From positions 1 through 22,875 of IMG/VR virus record IMGVR_UViG_3300001097_001787: a DNA stretch of 22,875 bases; one strand, given 5' to 3'. The notes below the pieces were generated by a model. It was given only the letters and a program-made list of their open reading frames with translations. It ran no database searches and was not told the origin of the DNA. The position numbers and the translations under genes are program-made. Within the stretch, counting starts at the first letter, position 1; each line of letters opens with the position of its first letter. Shown one piece after another: positions 9,893-16,418 of the stretch. Source of the stretch: a virus.

Positions 9893-10282
9893 ATGACTCC
9901 TCTTATCCTTGAAAAAATGTACGAGACGATGAAGCGCTCGGGGGCATTGTTTTTGCCAAGCACCCCCAATATGCGCCGGATCAGGCTTATTGGAGGCGCC
10001 GAGAACCGTGTCGGCGAGATGGAAGGCGCCGTGGAAGAAACGCTCGATTTCAAAGCGGTAATTTGGACGGCACGGGCCAATTCGCGAGAGCGCGGCGGCG
10101 CGGTGGATGAGGCCGCCGATATGGAACTTCACTACCAGGACGATTCTCTTCTAAAAGTCGGCGATCTCGTTGAGCGCATCGCGGACGGCACCCGGTTCAG
10201 GGTGGGCGGGGTGACCGACCTTGGCGGCCCGTCTCACCCGCTGGGTTTTGTGGCACGCATTAACGAGGTGGACACACGATGA
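9893..10282 (+). CDS. Probable head-tail connector (lambda FII-like / head closure)
   Basis: The 129-residue product follows the gpW-like gene after 22 bases. A second in-frame ATG lies at 9917; neither start has a clear ribosome site, so the N-terminus is uncertain by eight residues. The C-terminal half (about 75-129) is beta-rich, with MELHYQDDSLLKVGDLVERI and TRFRVGGVTDLG, a pattern common in phage head-tail adaptors, where a small barrel attaches head to tail. The end overlaps the next start as ATGA. Lambda FII is 117 residues and lies in the same place. Assignment rests on fold type and order. Confidence 0.7.
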   Translation: MTPLILEKMYETMKRSGALFLPSTPNMRRIRLIGGAENRVGEMEGAVEETLDFKAVIWTARANSRERGGAVDEAADMELHYQDDSLLKVGDLVERIADGTRFRVGGVTDLGGPSHPLGFVARINEVDTR

Positions 10283-10821
10283 GCACCAAACACGTCACAA
10301 TGGAGCAGCTATCGGCCGTTTTGAGGGTCGATTTCGAGGAGATGGTCGAGGCGAGCGAAGGCGCACTTTTTCGCGCCGCGCTCAAAGGCGTTCGTCCCGT
10401 CGTCGAAGATACCCCGACCGACCGCGGCCAGGCGAAGGCCGGGTGGGATGTGCGCCGGGTTAAGGGCGGCGCGGATCTCTATAATGACGTCCCCTATATC
10501 GGGGTGTTGGAGTCGGGAAGTCGCCCGCATCGCCCGCCGATGATGCCCATTATAGAGTGGGTCGTCCGGAAATTCGGCCTTAACCTCGAGCTTATAGATG
10601 CCGGGGGGAGCGACGAAGACGGAAAAAAGGCCATGAAGCGCGCCAAGAAATCCTTTGAGAGCATCAAAGATGTGCCGTGGCGCACCTACCGCTTTGCACT
10701 CGCCATCGTCGAGAAGATCGAGCGGGAGGGAAGCGAGCCGCATTATATGGTCAAGAATAACCTCGATAAGCTCGAAGCCATCGCCAAGAGCGAGGTCGAG
10801 AAAGCCCTGGGCAGCCTGTGA
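10279..10821 (+). CDS. HK97 gp10-like neck / tail completion protein
   Basis: The 180-residue protein shows the typical centre of the HK97 gp10 family: TPTDRGQAKAGWDVRR, then a beta strand and YNDVPYIGVLESGSRPHRPP (about residues 44-86). These proteins sit at the head-proximal end of the tail and help complete or join it. The C-terminal half holds long charged helices (DEDGKKAMKRAKKSFES, then a second one). It starts in an ATGA overlap and ends in a GTGA overlap with the next gene, so the three connector genes are translated as a unit. Confidence 0.83.
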   Translation: MSTKHVTMEQLSAVLRVDFEEMVEASEGALFRAALKGVRPVVEDTPTDRGQAKAGWDVRRVKGGADLYNDVPYIGVLESGSRPHRPPMMPIIEWVVRKFGLNLELIDAGGSDEDGKKAMKRAKKSFESIKDVPWRTYRFALAIVEKIEREGSEPHYMVKNNLDKLEAIAKSEVEKALGSL

Positions 10822-11369: not shown

Positions 11370-12776
11370 ATGGCCACTTATTATTCGAAAAACCCGACTG
11401 ATTGGTACGCCCTCGAGGGCATTTATATCGCCGAGATGCAGCAACCCGGCGGGGCGAGCATCCGCTCCAATGGCGGGCTCGCCAAAATCGTCGGAGAATT
11501 CCCCTGGGGGCCGGTAAACGAGTTGGTGAAAGTCGGCTCTTCGGCGCAGTTTAAGGACGGGCTTATCGGCGAGACACAGTCCCTTCAAGAATACGCAGGA
11601 TTCCGGGCCATCACCGGCAAGGCGTGGGGCGGGCTTCATATCGTGCGCGTCGGTGTCGCCGGGCAAGCCAAGGCGAGTGTGACTCTGGCGGAAGCCGCCT
11701 TGAAGGACGCTTATAAGCTGGACGCGAAATATGTCGGCGCGGCGGGGAATGAGATCGCATACTCCCACACCGATAATAACGACAATACCTTCGATTTGAC
11801 CCTGAGCTGGGGCAACGCGTCCAAGGCATACCGCGGGCTTAGCCTGTCGGCCGCAAGCTTGGAGACCGTCGATAACCCGTGGGTTGATATCACGCTGATC
11901 GATGATACCGCCGACGTCCCCGCAGATAGCACGGGGTTTCTGGAGAACGGCGCAAATGGCACGCCCGGCGACGCCGATTATTCCGACGCGCTCGACGCCC
12001 TTCTGGTGGACGCCTCCGGTGGTGTCGTTTTTGCCGCCGAATATACCAGTCCCGCCTGGCTCGCGGCGCTTCAAACCCATGTGGCCGAAAAGCGCGCCCA
12101 GGGCGTGGCGCAGGCCGCCGCCGGGGACGTCGCGGCCAATATCAGCGCGGCTGAGGGGATCAGCGACGACCGCATGATCTTCGGCGTGCATCGGGTGAAG
12201 CAATTCATCGCGTCCACGCTTGTCGAGGTGGACCTTGCGCCCTTTATCGCCTCGGTCCTGGTCAATTCAAGCCCGCATATCTCGCCGGCGGCCAACCGAA
12301 ACAGCGAGTGGCTAAAGCCCATCCGCGCCTTCGCAGACGGTGTGGGTTTGACGCGCTCGACCTACATCAAAATCAAGCAGGCTGGCGCTATGGCGCTTGA
12401 GCAGCAGGATGGAAGCTGGACGATTGTCAGCGGCATCACGAGCGACACCACGCCGGGGAAAGAGCAGGTGAATACCCGGCGCATGAAAGACCTAATCGCC
12501 CAGAATTCAGCGCGCTCGCTCGCCCCGTTCCAATCCGAGCCGCCCTACCCCTCAAACGTCAATGGGGCCAAGGCTGTGCTGGTGAAGATGCTCGGCCTTC
12601 TGGCCGGAAACCCCTCGAACCCCGACAGCCAATTGATTGAGGATTCCCGGGTTGACATCGTCGAATTGACGCCCAATTCGGTGCAATTCAAGCTCACCGC
12701 AAAGCTGTGGGGCGCGATGGATCACATTATCGCAAGTATTTTGGTGGGCGAGAATGTCGAGATTGAAGAAGCTTGA
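11370..12776 (+). CDS. Tail sheath protein
   Basis: GGAG at 11357-11360 lies nine bases before the ATG. This 468-residue protein is the contractile sheath subunit. Its start (WYALEGIYIAEMQQPGG) and next block (KIVGEFPWGPVNELVKV, then SSAQFKDGLIG) follow the sheath N-terminal pattern of 'biological activity strand then G..PWGP'. The middle (about 140-290) is the variable outer domain, and the last 130 residues hold a conserved core with IKQAGAMALEQQDGSW, a TPGKEQVNTRRMKDLIA helix, and the C-terminal strand near DHIIASILVGE (451-461) that interlocks neighbouring subunits. Its presence sets the tail type as contractile. A degenerate copy of the C-terminus lies downstream. Confidence 0.92.
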   Translation: MATYYSKNPTDWYALEGIYIAEMQQPGGASIRSNGGLAKIVGEFPWGPVNELVKVGSSAQFKDGLIGETQSLQEYAGFRAITGKAWGGLHIVRVGVAGQAKASVTLAEAALKDAYKLDAKYVGAAGNEIAYSHTDNNDNTFDLTLSWGNASKAYRGLSLSAASLETVDNPWVDITLIDDTADVPADSTGFLENGANGTPGDADYSDALDALLVDASGGVVFAAEYTSPAWLAALQTHVAEKRAQGVAQAAAGDVAANISAAEGISDDRMIFGVHRVKQFIASTLVEVDLAPFIASVLVNSSPHISPAANRNSEWLKPIRAFADGVGLTRSTYIKIKQAGAMALEQQDGSWTIVSGITSDTTPGKEQVNTRRMKDLIAQNSARSLAPFQSEPPYPSNVNGAKAVLVKMLGLLAGNPSNPDSQLIEDSRVDIVELTPNSVQFKLTAKLWGAMDHIIASILVGENVEIEEA

Positions 12777-12782
12777 TGCTTT

Positions 12783-12857
12783 CCCCGCAATGCGGGGCTG
12801 AACCGGATCATATCATTGCGTCGATTCTGGTCGATGAGTGCTCCCCGCGATGCGGGG
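12783..12857 (+). repeat. Paired palindromes flanking a diverged copy of the sheath C-terminus
   Basis: Two 15-base palindromes, CCCCGCAATGCGGGG (12783-12797) and CCCCGCGATGCGGGG (12843-12857), lie exactly 60 bases apart in the sheath-tube gap. Each can form a six-pair GC stem; neither has a T-tail. Between them, bases 12807-12839 encode DHIIASILVDE, against DHIIASILVGE in the sheath (12720-12752), mostly with different synonymous codons (Ser AGT against TCG, Leu TTG against CTG). A short frame from 12773 spans this region but lacks a ribosome site and runs into the tube gene in another frame, so I treat it as a remnant rather than a gene. Confidence 0.75.
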
Positions 12858-12885
12858 CGAATCCATTAAACAATAGGGAAAAACA

Positions 12886-13311
12886 ATGCCTGCTAAAGGA
12901 CAAGATTACCAATTTTTGCTGCTCGACGGCTCCGGGGAGATCGTCCGCACGATTTCCCCCAATGACATGACCTTTAACCTGGTCGAAAACCGCGAGCGCA
13001 TCGAGCGCACCGGCACGCGCCACTCGCCCCTCGACCAGACCATTACCGGTTGGGATGGGAAGGCCAGCTTTGATGAGGAGGACTTCGTACTTGATGACCT
13101 CATACAGGGTATTCAAGACGGCTACTTCAATGGCCAGAAGATCGAAGATATGGAGATTCTTCACACCAAATATATCCCGGAATTGGGCGCCACGCGCACC
13201 TATCGCTACCCGGGCGTGAAGATCGGATACAACGAGAACGCCGGCGGTCAAAAGGACAAGGTATCCAAAGAGATCGACTGGCAGAGTGGCCCTCGAGAGA
13301 TCCTCGCCTAA
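12886..13311 (+). CDS. Tail tube protein
   Basis: The ATG at 12886 follows AGGG (12875-12878) by seven bases in an A-rich leader. The 141-residue protein lies directly after the sheath, where the tube is encoded. It is beta-rich, with an N-terminal strand YQFLLLDGSGEIVRTIS, a loop with ERTGTRHSPLDQT, a helix DEEDFVLDDLIQGIQDG, and final strands (TYRYPGVKIGYNE, SKEIDWQSGPREIL). Tube proteins stack as hexameric rings to make the inner DNA conduit. Size fits contractile-tail tube proteins, and order and fold type carry the call. Confidence 0.83.
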   Translation: MPAKGQDYQFLLLDGSGEIVRTISPNDMTFNLVENRERIERTGTRHSPLDQTITGWDGKASFDEEDFVLDDLIQGIQDGYFNGQKIEDMEILHTKYIPELGATRTYRYPGVKIGYNENAGGQKDKVSKEIDWQSGPREILA

Positions 13312-13322
13312 TCCTCGCCTAA
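13301..13322 (+). repeat. 11-base tandem duplication at the tube stop codon
   Basis: TCCTCGCCTAA occurs at 13301-13311 and again at 13312-13322. The first copy contains the tube protein's last codons and its TAA; the second lies after the stop and is untranslated. It is most simply a replication-slippage duplication that left the protein end unchanged. Confidence 0.9.
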
Positions 13323-13363
13323 TCCGGCGCAACCCTCATTCATTCACTTTTAGGAATATTATT

Positions 13364-14197
13364 ATGAGCAGAAACCCGAAACGAGACTGGAGCGCCACGC
13401 TCCCCGGAGGCATTCCCATCGAGGGAATCTTGCCCGATTCACTGATCGCGCGTCGCGCGCTGGAACTTGTCACCGGGCATAATTCGATGCCGGTGGAGGC
13501 CGTGGTTCAAAAGGCGATGGCCAATCAACTTCGGCTGTGCATCCAGAAGATCGGCGGACGCGAGGTAAGCTGGTCGAAGCTGCGCGGAAAGCTTCTGGAT
13601 CACTTCCTGGACCCGAAGCAGCAGCATTTAATCCGGCGCATGTTCCAGCAGCTCACCGACCCCAGCGAGGCGGAGGTGAAGTTTATGCACGACTCACTCG
13701 CCATTGAAAACGACGACGGCGAGTGGGCCTGGAGCGGGAAAATGCTGTGCGGCGAGGCGCTTGATGCGTGGATTGATGCCAACGAGAAAAGGGCCGAAGC
13801 CGAGGCGCTCCTGGAGATGGACCCCGACGATGAAGACGGCGCGCTTCGCCGTTTTGAAGAGGCCGTGGCGGCGCTCGATGGGGCCAACGAGAAAGCCATC
13901 ACGGTGCACGGGACCATCCCCAATACGAACGTGATTCAGCGCGCGATTGAGCAAATCCCGGCGGAGGCGAGAAAGAAGCCCGCGCTTAGCCGCAAGGAGT
14001 CTTCGGAGAATCTGGTTCGCCTGTGCATCACTGAGATCGCGGGGACGGCCGTCGGGTTTAGCGAGCTTAAGGGGACTGGGATCGACACGTGGCTTCACCC
14101 CAAAGAGCAGACGCTCATCGCCCACGCGCTTATGGAACTCGGCACGCCCCAAGCCGAAGAAGAGGCCGATTTTTTGGCGACAATCACGCAGGGCTAG
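13364..14197 (+). CDS. Tail assembly chaperone (G-type), internally duplicated
   Basis: The start at 13364 follows TAGGA (13351-13355); a longer frame from 13286 would overlap the tube gene. Position between tube and tape measure, and a -1 frame partner, identify a tail assembly chaperone, which coats the tape measure and recruits tube subunits. The 277-residue product contains two aligned halves: residues 54-113 (NQLRLCIQKIGGREVSWSKL and onward) and 216-275 (NLVRLCITEIAGTAVGFSEL and onward) align without gaps at an offset of 162, sharing for example F/WL.PK at 81-85 and 243-247. Between them lies an acidic helical linker (about 135-180). The slippery heptamer is near the end of the second copy. 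It is about twice the usual size for such proteins because of the duplication. Confidence 0.85.
   Translation: MSRNPKRDWSATLPGGIPIEGILPDSLIARRALELVTGHNSMPVEAVVQKAMANQLRLCIQKIGGREVSWSKLRGKLLDHFLDPKQQHLIRRMFQQLTDPSEAEVKFMHDSLAIENDDGEWAWSGKMLCGEALDAWIDANEKRAEAEALLEMDPDDEDGALRRFEEAVAALDGANEKAITVHGTIPNTNVIQRAIEQIPAEARKKPALSRKESSENLVRLCITEIAGTAVGFSELKGTGIDTWLHPKEQTLIAHALMELGTPQAEEEADFLATITQG
14170..14176 (+). other. Programmed -1 ribosomal frameshift slippery site (T TTT TTG)
   Basis: In the chaperone frame the codons read GAT TTT TTG GCG, placing a canonical X XXY YYZ heptamer, T TTT TTG, over 14170-14176. A -1 slip re-pairs both tRNAs on TTT TTT and continues GGC GAC AAT into a frame open to 14472. 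The chaperone's own stop is only 19 bases downstream (TAG 14195-14197). This is the standard arrangement for making a long and a short tail chaperone. I have not computed downstream RNA structure. Confidence 0.82.
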
Positions 14198-14472
14198 AAA
14201 CCCCCGAAGTGCTGCGTGACGTCGAGATGGCAAGCTGGCGCGAGATGGCGCAAACGCCGCTTGGACCCGAGGCGGTGTTTGCCCTCGATGAGGAGACGCT
14301 CGACAGGCTCGGCCAGGTCATCGCGTCTCTTTGCCGGTGGGGGAACCATGATTGGAGCGAGGCGATGGGGCTTCCCATGCATCACCTTTTCTGGCGCTTT
14401 GACAGTCTTCAAAAACTCATTCAACACGAACAGGCGGCCGCTCCTTCGGGGCCACCAGGCACCAAACTTTAA
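14176..14472 (+). CDS. Tail assembly chaperone T-type extension, made as a frameshift fusion
   Basis: After the slip this -1 frame adds 98 residues, giving a fused product of about 369 residues beginning at 13364. The segment is soluble and mostly helical: EVLRDVEMASWREM, a middle with LDEETLDRLGQVIASLCRW, and the end MGLPMHHLFWRFDSLQKLIQHE, a hydrophobic helix pair of the kind seen at the ends of long tail chaperones, where it binds the tape measure. The Gly/Pro tail APSGPPGTKL follows. The tape measure starts two bases after its stop. Independent translation is possible (an ATG at 14227) but has no good ribosome site; the frameshift route is preferred. Confidence 0.78.
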   Translation, partial: GDNHAGLETPEVLRDVEMASWREMAQTPLGPEAVFALDEETLDRLGQVIASLCRWGNHDWSEAMGLPMHHLFWRFDSLQKLIQHEQAAAPSGPPGTKL

Positions 14473-14474
14473 TT

Positions 14475-16418
14475 ATGCCTCTATCGTCAGTCTACAATAT
14501 TGAAACCCGCTACCGGGTGGATGCCATGAACGCCCGGCGCCAGGTGGATTCCCTCGCCGACCGGATGGGTAGGCTTTCGTCGCGCGCCGAGCACACCAAA
14601 AGCAGGCTCGCCGGGCTCTTTACCGGTCTCGCGGTGGGTGCAGGTGCTGTGGGCCTCGCCGGGGTCGGCCTGGCAACGCGCCACATGTTTCAACTCGGCA
14701 TGGCCACCGAAAGCGCCAAGATCTCAATCGCCGGTATCTTCTCGACTGTCGGGGATAAGTCCAAAAGCTTCACCCAGAATCTTGAGCGCGCGCAAACCCT
14801 CTTTGAGAAGTTCGGCGAGGCATCGATCGAAAGCCCGTTTGACCGCTACGATTTCGTTGAGGTCTTTGGCGCCGCTGCCCCCGCGCTCGCGTCTGATCAG
14901 CTTGGGCTAAATGACGATCAAATCACCAGCATGATGTCCCGCGCGGCCATGGCCGGGAAGGTCTTTAATCAGGGCGATATGGAGCAAACTGGGCGCGATA
15001 TTGTCCAGATGCTCCAGGGGAATGCGGGCACCGACACCAAAACATTTGCCGCGATCCGGACCGAACTCTTTGACAAGATGGGCGTGTCGGGGACCGAGGC
15101 GTTTAATAAGATTGCGAAAAATGACCCATCTCAGGTTTTCGAGGCGATAAACGATGCACTCAAAGGGCTCGACCCGGCGATCAAGACCTACGGCGACTCT
15201 TTTGAGGGCTTGTTTTCAACGATCAAGGAGCAACTCAATATTGGAGTTTTGCATGCATGGGATGCCTTTACAGAGGAGGTTCAAGACGATCTCGCTGCGG
15301 TCGCCGATTATCTAAAAGATCATCAAGGCGATATTAAGGCATTCGCCAGCCGAGCGGGTAAATTTTTGGGCGATGCATTCCAAAAAATCGGGCGTATGGC
15401 CGTATGGGCCAAAGACCATATCGGTGAGCTCATCAGCGCATTGGGCCTACTGGCCGGCTATAAAAGCATTAAGGTTGGCATCGATATCGCTGAGATCGCC
15501 AAAGCTGGGGCGCTCGGGCTGAGCGGTGGCGGTGGAATGATTGGCAAAGCGGTTCAGGGTGGAAGTGCGCTGTTAGGAGGCGGAAAGATGGCCAGCATGG
15601 TGGCGGGTATCACCACGGCAGGGCTGGCGCTTGGCGGTGTGGCGGTTGCGTCGGTCGCGCTGTCTGAGGCCTTTAAAATTTTATCGAGTGACACCAAAGA
15701 CTTAAGCGCGTCCGAGAAGGCATCGAGAGACTATTGGGAGGCGTCTTCAAGTTTCTTTATGGGGTCTCTTACAGACCTCGGCAAGTCAATCGGACTTGTA
15801 AACGACAAAACGGGAAACATTCAAGGCGTTGGCGAAGTCGTACTCGGGTTGGGTGGTGTCATCGCACAAGCCGCTGGATATATTCTAGACTCAGCCACAG
15901 CATTATGGTCTGCATTCCAGTTAATCATATTTGGCATAGGATCAGCTTTCGAAGAGCTATTAAATATGATTGGCATAACGCAAAACTCACACAATTTCGT
16001 CGAGGCTATCGCGGGCGTGCGCCAAGATCTGGCGCCGATTTATGACCGTTGGTTTGGTAACGGAAAATCGGCGCCAAATGCATCACCCAAAAACACTGCA
16101 CCCGCGCCCTGGTATGCGCCACAGGATAAATCCATCGCCCAGGAAGAGGCCAATAGGGCGCTTAAAAATACGATGGGATTTTATGCCCCTGTTACTCCAG
16201 GTGATGCGTTTGGAGATTGGATGGGCAAAGGAGCCAAAGAGCGCGCCGACAGCACCAAAAAGCCTGAAAATCAGGGCACTCCAAAGGTCGACATCACCAA
16301 CAATATCACCCAGCATATCCGCACCGGGGCCGACCCGGACCGCATCGCGCTTCGGGCCGCAGATGTCATCGGCGAGAAGATTCGCCACTCGATTAAACCG
16401 TATGCCCAGGGGCTTTAA
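14475..16418 (+). CDS. Tail tape measure protein
   Basis: At 647 residues it is among the longest products here and follows the chaperone gene, as tape measures do. The N-terminus has helices (MNARRQVDSLADRMGRLSSR) and a Gly/Ala-rich hydrophobic segment (LFTGLAVGAGAVGLAGVGLA). The middle is helical with further hydrophobic stretches around 365-390 and 445-500. The C-terminus ends in the familiar PKVDITNNITQHI and DPDRIALRAADVIGEKI pattern. It runs down the tail tube, sets its length and is ejected on infection. By the usual rule of about 0.15 nm per residue the tail would be near 100 nm (inference). Bases about 15,770-16,020 are AT-richer with rarer codons, suggesting a recombined patch. Confidence 0.92.
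   Translation: MPLSSVYNIETRYRVDAMNARRQVDSLADRMGRLSSRAEHTKSRLAGLFTGLAVGAGAVGLAGVGLATRHMFQLGMATESAKISIAGIFSTVGDKSKSFTQNLERAQTLFEKFGEASIESPFDRYDFVEVFGAAAPALASDQLGLNDDQITSMMSRAAMAGKVFNQGDMEQTGRDIVQMLQGNAGTDTKTFAAIRTELFDKMGVSGTEAFNKIAKNDPSQVFEAINDALKGLDPAIKTYGDSFEGLFSTIKEQLNIGVLHAWDAFTEEVQDDLAAVADYLKDHQGDIKAFASRAGKFLGDAFQKIGRMAVWAKDHIGELISALGLLAGYKSIKVGIDIAEIAKAGALGLSGGGGMIGKAVQGGSALLGGGKMASMVAGITTAGLALGGVAVASVALSEAFKILSSDTKDLSASEKASRDYWEASSSFFMGSLTDLGKSIGLVNDKTGNIQGVGEVVLGLGGVIAQAAGYILDSATALWSAFQLIIFGIGSAFEELLNMIGITQNSHNFVEAIAGVRQDLAPIYDRWFGNGKSAPNASPKNTAPAPWYAPQDKSIAQEEANRALKNTMGFYAPVTPGDAFGDWMGKGAKERADSTKKPENQGTPKVDITNNITQHIRTGADPDRIALRAADVIGEKIRHSIKPYAQGL

Follow-up and report, generated by a model that had tools for sequence, protein, structure and literature searches.

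The window (the whole stretch of DNA analysed, a virus contig of 22,875 bases) carries, between its tail tube and tape measure genes, a gene that probably encodes the tail assembly chaperone G of a contractile-tailed phage, together with a −1 frameshift product GT, and in this gene the G unit appears to have undergone a doubling that places both copies in a single chain and has since been maintained. The evidence comes from the gene position, an internal repeat of the protein, the predicted fold of both units, a putative slippery site at the 3′ end of the gene, and the presence of double-unit and single-unit proteins at the same place in related phages.

Genomic context of the chaperone gene

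Profile matches named the terminase, portal, MuF, capsid, neck, sheath, and LysM baseplate proteins of the window, as well as a hub-like tail protein, a spike OB-domain protein, and baseplate wedge proteins. The head, sheath, and baseplate matches thus indicated a contractile-tailed phage. The tail sheath gene (11370–12776, plus strand; phrog_279 tail sheath, E 1.5e-21) is followed by a gene at 12886–13311 on the plus strand, which was named tail tube from its place after the sheath. Its product matched phrog_12993 (E 2.4e-9), a PHROG family without a named function, and homologs were found at the same place in relatives L113, L114, L199, L200, L202, and L203. Next comes the 277-residue chaperone gene (13364–14197, plus strand), recognized by its open reading frame, position, internal repeat, and fold match, and then the tape measure gene (14475–16418, plus strand; 647 residues), which was also named from its place and whose N-terminus is homologous to the product of the gene after G in L114, L199, L200, L202, L203, and L026. 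Tail assembly chaperone genes sit between the tube and the tape measure, and the gene studied here has this position, both neighbors being named by place and by homology among the relatives. Another candidate, the neck gene at 10279–10818, was rejected: its match to Phage_TAC_19 was weak (14.4 bits, cut-off 27), and the phrog_5 neck family matched it better (E 5.8e-7).

Several features elsewhere in the contig were also recorded. At 12720–12858, the last sheath codons (DHIIASILV) are repeated directly after the sheath stop, most of the differences being synonymous, and two copies of a GC-rich palindrome (TCCCCGCRATGCGGGGC) stand 60 nt apart; together these look like a scar of recombination or duplication. 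On the minus strand, at 300–1010, a protein with a zinc ribbon and a bacterial PH domain (bPH_2, E 1.8e-11) is encoded beside the packaging genes, which lie on the opposite strand; this could be an accessory gene, or a gene of the host at the border of a prophage. The MuF protein has 319 residues in the window and 566 in L027 (4508–6208), the additional part being C-terminal.

Internal repeat and predicted structure of the two units

The earlier note had reported that residues 54–113 and 216–275 of the protein align without gaps at an offset of 162, and this alignment was reproduced, with 21 of 60 positions identical and 32 of 60 positive in BLOSUM62. The repeat is real and extends beyond that span: the best gap-free match joins residues 17–104 with 179–266 at the same offset (27 of 88 identical, score 123), compared with a maximum of 56 when the complete protein was shuffled 300 times, and none of 2000 comparisons of one half with the shuffled other half reached the observed score. 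When the two halves were compared as profiles, each built from three sequences (window, L113, and L200), they matched with a probability of 99.3 and E 2.2e-20. The interval given previously was 13520–14197; the gene itself runs from 13364 to 14197, and the former start corresponds to residue 53. Over the stretch 17–104/179–266, the copies share only 45% of their DNA positions (34% at third codon positions); therefore, the duplication is old and does not result from a recent assembly error.

The AlphaFold2 model of the chaperone (pLDDT 92.0, pTM 0.84, 7-row alignment) predicted helices and strands in the same order in both copies. Unit 1, delimited by the predicted elements and the profile match to unit 2, covers residues 1–113 (13364–13702, plus strand) and is predicted to contain two strands (8–13 and 17–22), two helices (26–34 and 44–59), a strand (60–63), two short helices (70–73 and 75–80), and two further helices (84–98 and 102–110). 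Unit 2, recognized by the same element order, spans about residues 118–277 (13715–14194, plus strand), with predicted strands at 120–127 and 179–184, helices at 188–196, 200–203, and 206–221, a strand at 222–225, and helices at 232–235, 240–243, 246–260, and 264–273. Between its first two strands, the model places a helical hairpin composed of helices 131–152 and 154–176 (residues 131–176; 13754–13891, plus strand). The region between the copies had previously been described as an acidic linker. It is indeed acidic, with 20 Asp/Glu and 6 Lys/Arg at residues 114–178, but 46 of its residues form the predicted hairpin inside the unit 2 beta-hairpin, and the supposed linker is therefore mainly an insertion within unit 2. 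Longer charged stretches align to this place in L113 and L200, and none does in L114. The model of the single-unit L202 protein (pLDDT 85.8) has the element order of each window unit, with a short loop replacing the hairpin; L199, L203, and L026, judged by alignment, have no space for a helical hairpin.

Putative frameshift site and T extension

A slippery heptamer, T TTT TTG, is located at 14170–14176 (plus strand), and its slip TTT codon starts 26 nt before the final base of the stop codon of G. Between 14071 and 14472 the −1 frame remains open, and a putative T extension of 99 residues counted from the slip occupies 14173–14472 (plus strand), as indicated by the open frame and its similarity to relatives. 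The sequence thus supports the previous proposals that the frameshift site lies in the second copy only and that a fused product would combine a single T domain with two G units. A second in-frame TTTT was found at codon 164, between the copies. TTTTTTG is not rare in the record (7 matches on both strands versus 3.6 expected; 8 of 100 shuffles had as many), and the case for the slip site therefore rests on its position and on the relatives.

Each of the eight close G genes (L026, L199, L202, L203, L114, L200, L113, and that of the window) has a TTT codon preceded by T near its 3′ end. In seven of them this codon occupies the aligned position; in L026 it was placed by eye. The distance from the slip codon to the last base of the stop is 26 nt in five of the eight and 32, 44, and 86 nt in L026, L202, and L199, and the −1 frame extends 60–101 residues past the G stop across the set. 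The full heptamer T TTT TTG occurs in the window, L114, L199, and L202, and L026 has T TTT TTC; L113, L200, and L203 have TTTT only, so that a slip there would need one-tRNA slippage. The T frame of the window was similar to those of five of the seven relatives (L113, L200, L199, L202, and L203; 0 of 500 shuffles as good), and its similarity to L114 and L026 was not significant (41 and 321 of 500 shuffles as good). The overlapping frame and slippery site at the 3′ end of G, characteristic of the G/GT class, are thus present as sequence features.

Two possible frameshift signals were considered and rejected. RNA structure after the slip gave a z-score of −2.05 in the window, but only −1.25 in L113, −1.47 in L200, 0.16 in L114, and 0.59 in L202; therefore, we do not claim a conserved stimulator. 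A Shine-Dalgarno-like stretch before the slip ranked high in L113 (10 of 284), L200 (6 of 303), L114 (16 of 249), and L202 (15 of 156) and more poorly in L199 (33 of 132), L203 (55 of 130), L026 (48 of 121), and the window (93 of 268), and acidic codons alone could produce such a stretch. In the more distant single-unit phages L204–L208, the 3′ ends of the chaperone genes lie close to slippery motifs of other kinds (G GGA AAA, G GGG GGA, and G GGG GAA), where the −1 frames are open; the chaperone and the tape measure are separated by a gene of roughly 400 residues.

The location of the slip site after unit 2 only, together with the 26% identity between the units, raises the question of whether both are still equivalent. 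Unit 1 could have taken another job, for example holding the tube or an end of the tape measure, leaving unit 2 as the sole true G; the somewhat higher conservation of unit 2 among the window, L113, and L200 (40, 47, and 42%, versus 42, 37, and 35% for unit 1) points in the same direction. However, the core positions (N..LR, L, D..L, and K.Q) are kept by both units in all three phages, and the predicted fold is equal in both units of the window. A complete division of this kind is conceivable, but we consider it somewhat improbable.

Double-unit and single-unit relatives

The relatives were obtained from alignments of terminase, MuF, and sheath proteins, after which the gene between the tube and the tape measure was read; a chaperone region was accepted only where the sheath or tube placed the locus. 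The 13 chaperones compared, the window included, were all found via the window's own neighbor genes and do not represent a random phage sample. Records retrieved under two designations (L203 and L115; L201 and L113) were counted once each. Three contigs were left out because they end too early: L209 before the chaperone, L116 at the tube, and L027, which has the closest terminase (56%), before the tail genes.

Double-unit proteins were encoded in 4 of the 13 loci, so that the search for further phages with the double unit yielded L113 (293 residues), L200 (312), and L114 (258) besides the window (277). The remaining nine proteins were single-unit: L199 (141 residues), L202 (165), L203 (139), L026 (130), and the more distant L204–L208 (139–175). 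A test of half against half separated the two groups, with z-scores of 21.7, 12.6, 10.6, and 24.9 for the four double-unit proteins and from −1.6 to 0.7 for the nine single-unit ones. The statement that tail chaperones typically have a single unit therefore agrees with 9 of the 12 relatives compared. Judged from its position and size, the protein of L110 (149 residues, contig of L031) likewise seems to be single-unit. It stands outside the half-against-half count, and the sheath and tube of this locus were identified by eye. The gene order sheath, tube, G, −1 frame, and tape measure was found in the relatives as well, and the L199, L202, and L203 chaperones aligned to either unit of the window.

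Direct searches contributed little. Nothing usable was returned by the chaperone protein in viral contigs, phages, and genome contigs, by the sheath and the tube in viral contigs and phages, by the tape measure in phages, by the alignment of the two halves in viral contigs, or by the L202 and L113 chaperones in phages. The window chaperone and sheath likewise gave nothing usable in the L006 genome. Among 14 records of the terminase scan, the chaperone gave one weak match (G012, E 0.0075) with no sheath or tube match around it, which was not counted; among 30 of the 80 loci of the MuF scan, 3 records matched and 27 gave nothing.

Duplication history

On the tree of tail genes, the window, L113, and L200 formed a clade (support 100/100), and L114 clustered with the single-unit L203 (82/80). 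On the domain tree, the first units of the window, L113, and L200 formed one clade (95/97) and their second units another (92/96), which points to one duplication common to all three phages. Both units of L114, in turn, grouped with the single unit of L203 (76/90). The approximately unbiased test disfavored the grouping of all four first units (p-AU 0.036); the grouping of all four second units was not disfavored (0.135). The union of the two L114 units (0.439) and that of the four double-unit phages on the tail-gene tree (0.202) were not rejected; some of the tested groups were named after the first tree had been viewed. The domain tree is shaky because of the long branches of L026, L203, and the second unit of L114. 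The position of the L114 units and the p-AU values favor a second duplication that would have taken place separately in the L114 line.

Alternatively, the chain could have arisen by fusion of two already diverged chaperone genes, one with and one without the hairpin, and not by tandem duplication in place. Unit 1 of the window resembles the hairpin-less single units L199, L202, and L203, and it is 37% identical to L202 and only 26% to unit 2, while the strand–hairpin–strand layout of unit 2 is seemingly that of the single unit of Arthrobacter phage Molivia, as read from its sequence. On the other hand, in the best domain tree a single branch separates the six units of the window, L113, and L200 from all others, though its support is only 53/32, and a loop can gain a helical hairpin; moreover, L114 has two units that are hairpin-less by alignment. 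We regard a fusion as rather unlikely.

Comparison with known tail assembly chaperones

No Pfam tail-chaperone family matched the whole protein or its halves, and no PHROG chaperone family matched the protein; PF10109 gave no match at E ≤ 10, and ten single-unit relatives scanned against Pfam and PHROG matched no chaperone family. A Retrotrans_gag match of the whole protein (E 0.11) and weak PHROG matches were dropped as chance. In the Foldseek search of BFVD, the Molivia tail assembly chaperone ranked first among the matches of the model (E 4.9e-4, probability 1.00), and 5 of the top 20 matches were named tail assembly chaperone, two of them from Molivia. The match suggests a fold like that of known tail assembly chaperones, although the overall superposition was poor (214 columns, TM 0.32/0.40, rmsd 22.4; the covered part of the window chain not given). 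The L202 model likewise matched the Molivia chaperone along with further proteins named tail assembly chaperone, every one of them with an E-value above 0.001. In the PDB, none of the 258 Foldseek matches of the window model at E ≤ 10 reached E ≤ 0.001, and the VIA-align matches listed mostly spanned the helical hairpin.

In lambda and other long-tailed phages, the G/GT genes likewise lie between the tube and the tape measure, with a −1 extension near the 3′ end of G; the window differs by having two G units in one chain, and no common sequence family was found. Molivia (accession MF185731, given in a table of PMC5794937; genes 38/39) provides a closer parallel: its slip codons, GAT TTT TTG, are identical to those of the window, and its −1 frame, a counterpart of that in the window, ends where the annotated joined chaperone gene ends. 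Inspection of the sequence suggests a single unit in which two strands flank a helical hairpin, the layout also seen in unit 2 of the window. However, the Molivia chaperone has 204 residues and no internal repeat (a weak half-scan, z 0.8), no sequence similarity to the window units or the T extension was detectable, and Molivia is classified as a siphophage in PMC5794937, in contrast to the contractile-tailed phage of the window. The nearest single units (L199, L202, L203, and L026) have the same place, −1 frame, and slip codon as the window; they differ from it in having 130–165 residues, one unit, and no hairpin (L202 by model, the others by alignment). HK97 gp13 (2OB9), YqbN (3KLU), and 3FGX, named tail assembly chaperones in PMC9603447, where a gp13-like protein is reported to form filaments, belong to the same functional class as the window chaperone. 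They were not among the best 50 Foldseek and best 50 VIA-align PDB matches, which indicates neither likeness nor difference.

Since no named sequence family matches the window protein or the ten scanned single-unit relatives, some other tail protein could in principle occupy the place of the chaperone. The position, the −1 frame, the Molivia-like slip codon, and the fold matches to annotated tail assembly chaperones make this very improbable. An assembly artefact or chance similarity, which might be suspected because only metagenomic fragments are known, can practically be dismissed: the doubling occurs in four records, L113 and L200 come from one metagenome yet have sheaths only 49% identical, L114 comes from another metagenome, the window copies differ at 55% of DNA positions, and the repeat score is far above those of shuffles.

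Possible role of the doubled unit

In lambda, many G molecules bind the tape measure and a few GT molecules carry the tube-binding T domain, neither being part of the mature virion, according to PMC5009743. If the doubled chaperone acts similarly, G would coat the tape measure and a few GT chains would recruit tube subunits. Each two-unit chain would then fill two neighboring G positions on the tape measure, a tape measure would carry half as many chains, and every GT would contribute a single T domain for two G units. The two units might also pair as the built-in dimer proposed in the earlier note, which could change packing along the tape measure. Since the units are only 26% identical and neither has been lost, it is probable that they differ in part in their partners or faces; unit 1, for instance, may contact a neighbor or the tape measure, and unit 2 may lie beside the T domain.

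If doubling served longer tapes, longer tape measures would be expected in the double-unit phages. However, the complete lengths available, two for double-unit phages (window, 647; L114, 705) and six for single-unit phages (L026, 549; L207, 589; L208, 612; L204, 637; L202, 664; and L203, 747), showed no obvious link. The tape measure of L200 is seemingly split in two frames of 431 and 243 residues (11504–13473), which may reflect a sequencing error, an intron, or a frameshift.

A broader scenario can be put forward only tentatively: the doubling may have arisen at least twice in these myophages, after which the units specialized and the coat came to be built from invariant pairs of G units, each pair accompanied by one T domain. 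One event would precede the split of the window, L113, and L200, with a hairpin in unit 2, and the other would have occurred in the L114 line without a hairpin.

A literature search of titles and abstract openings, in which few subscription journals were covered, found no doubled tail assembly chaperone among the papers listed, which is weak evidence of absence. The accessible parts of PMC12846349, on duplicated tail tube genes and a conserved chaperone frameshift, and of PMC10885494, on the prediction of chaperone frameshifts, mention no doubled chaperone.

For annotation, the finding is a warning that a 277-residue "hypothetical protein" ahead of the tape measure can be a doubled chaperone. 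The number of chaperone units per tape measure and the proportions of G and GT are best known from lambda. Paired chaperone units would set the spacing of neighbors and the ratio of T to G units covalently, and the single-unit relatives, with their homologous neighbor genes, provide a natural comparison for the doubling.
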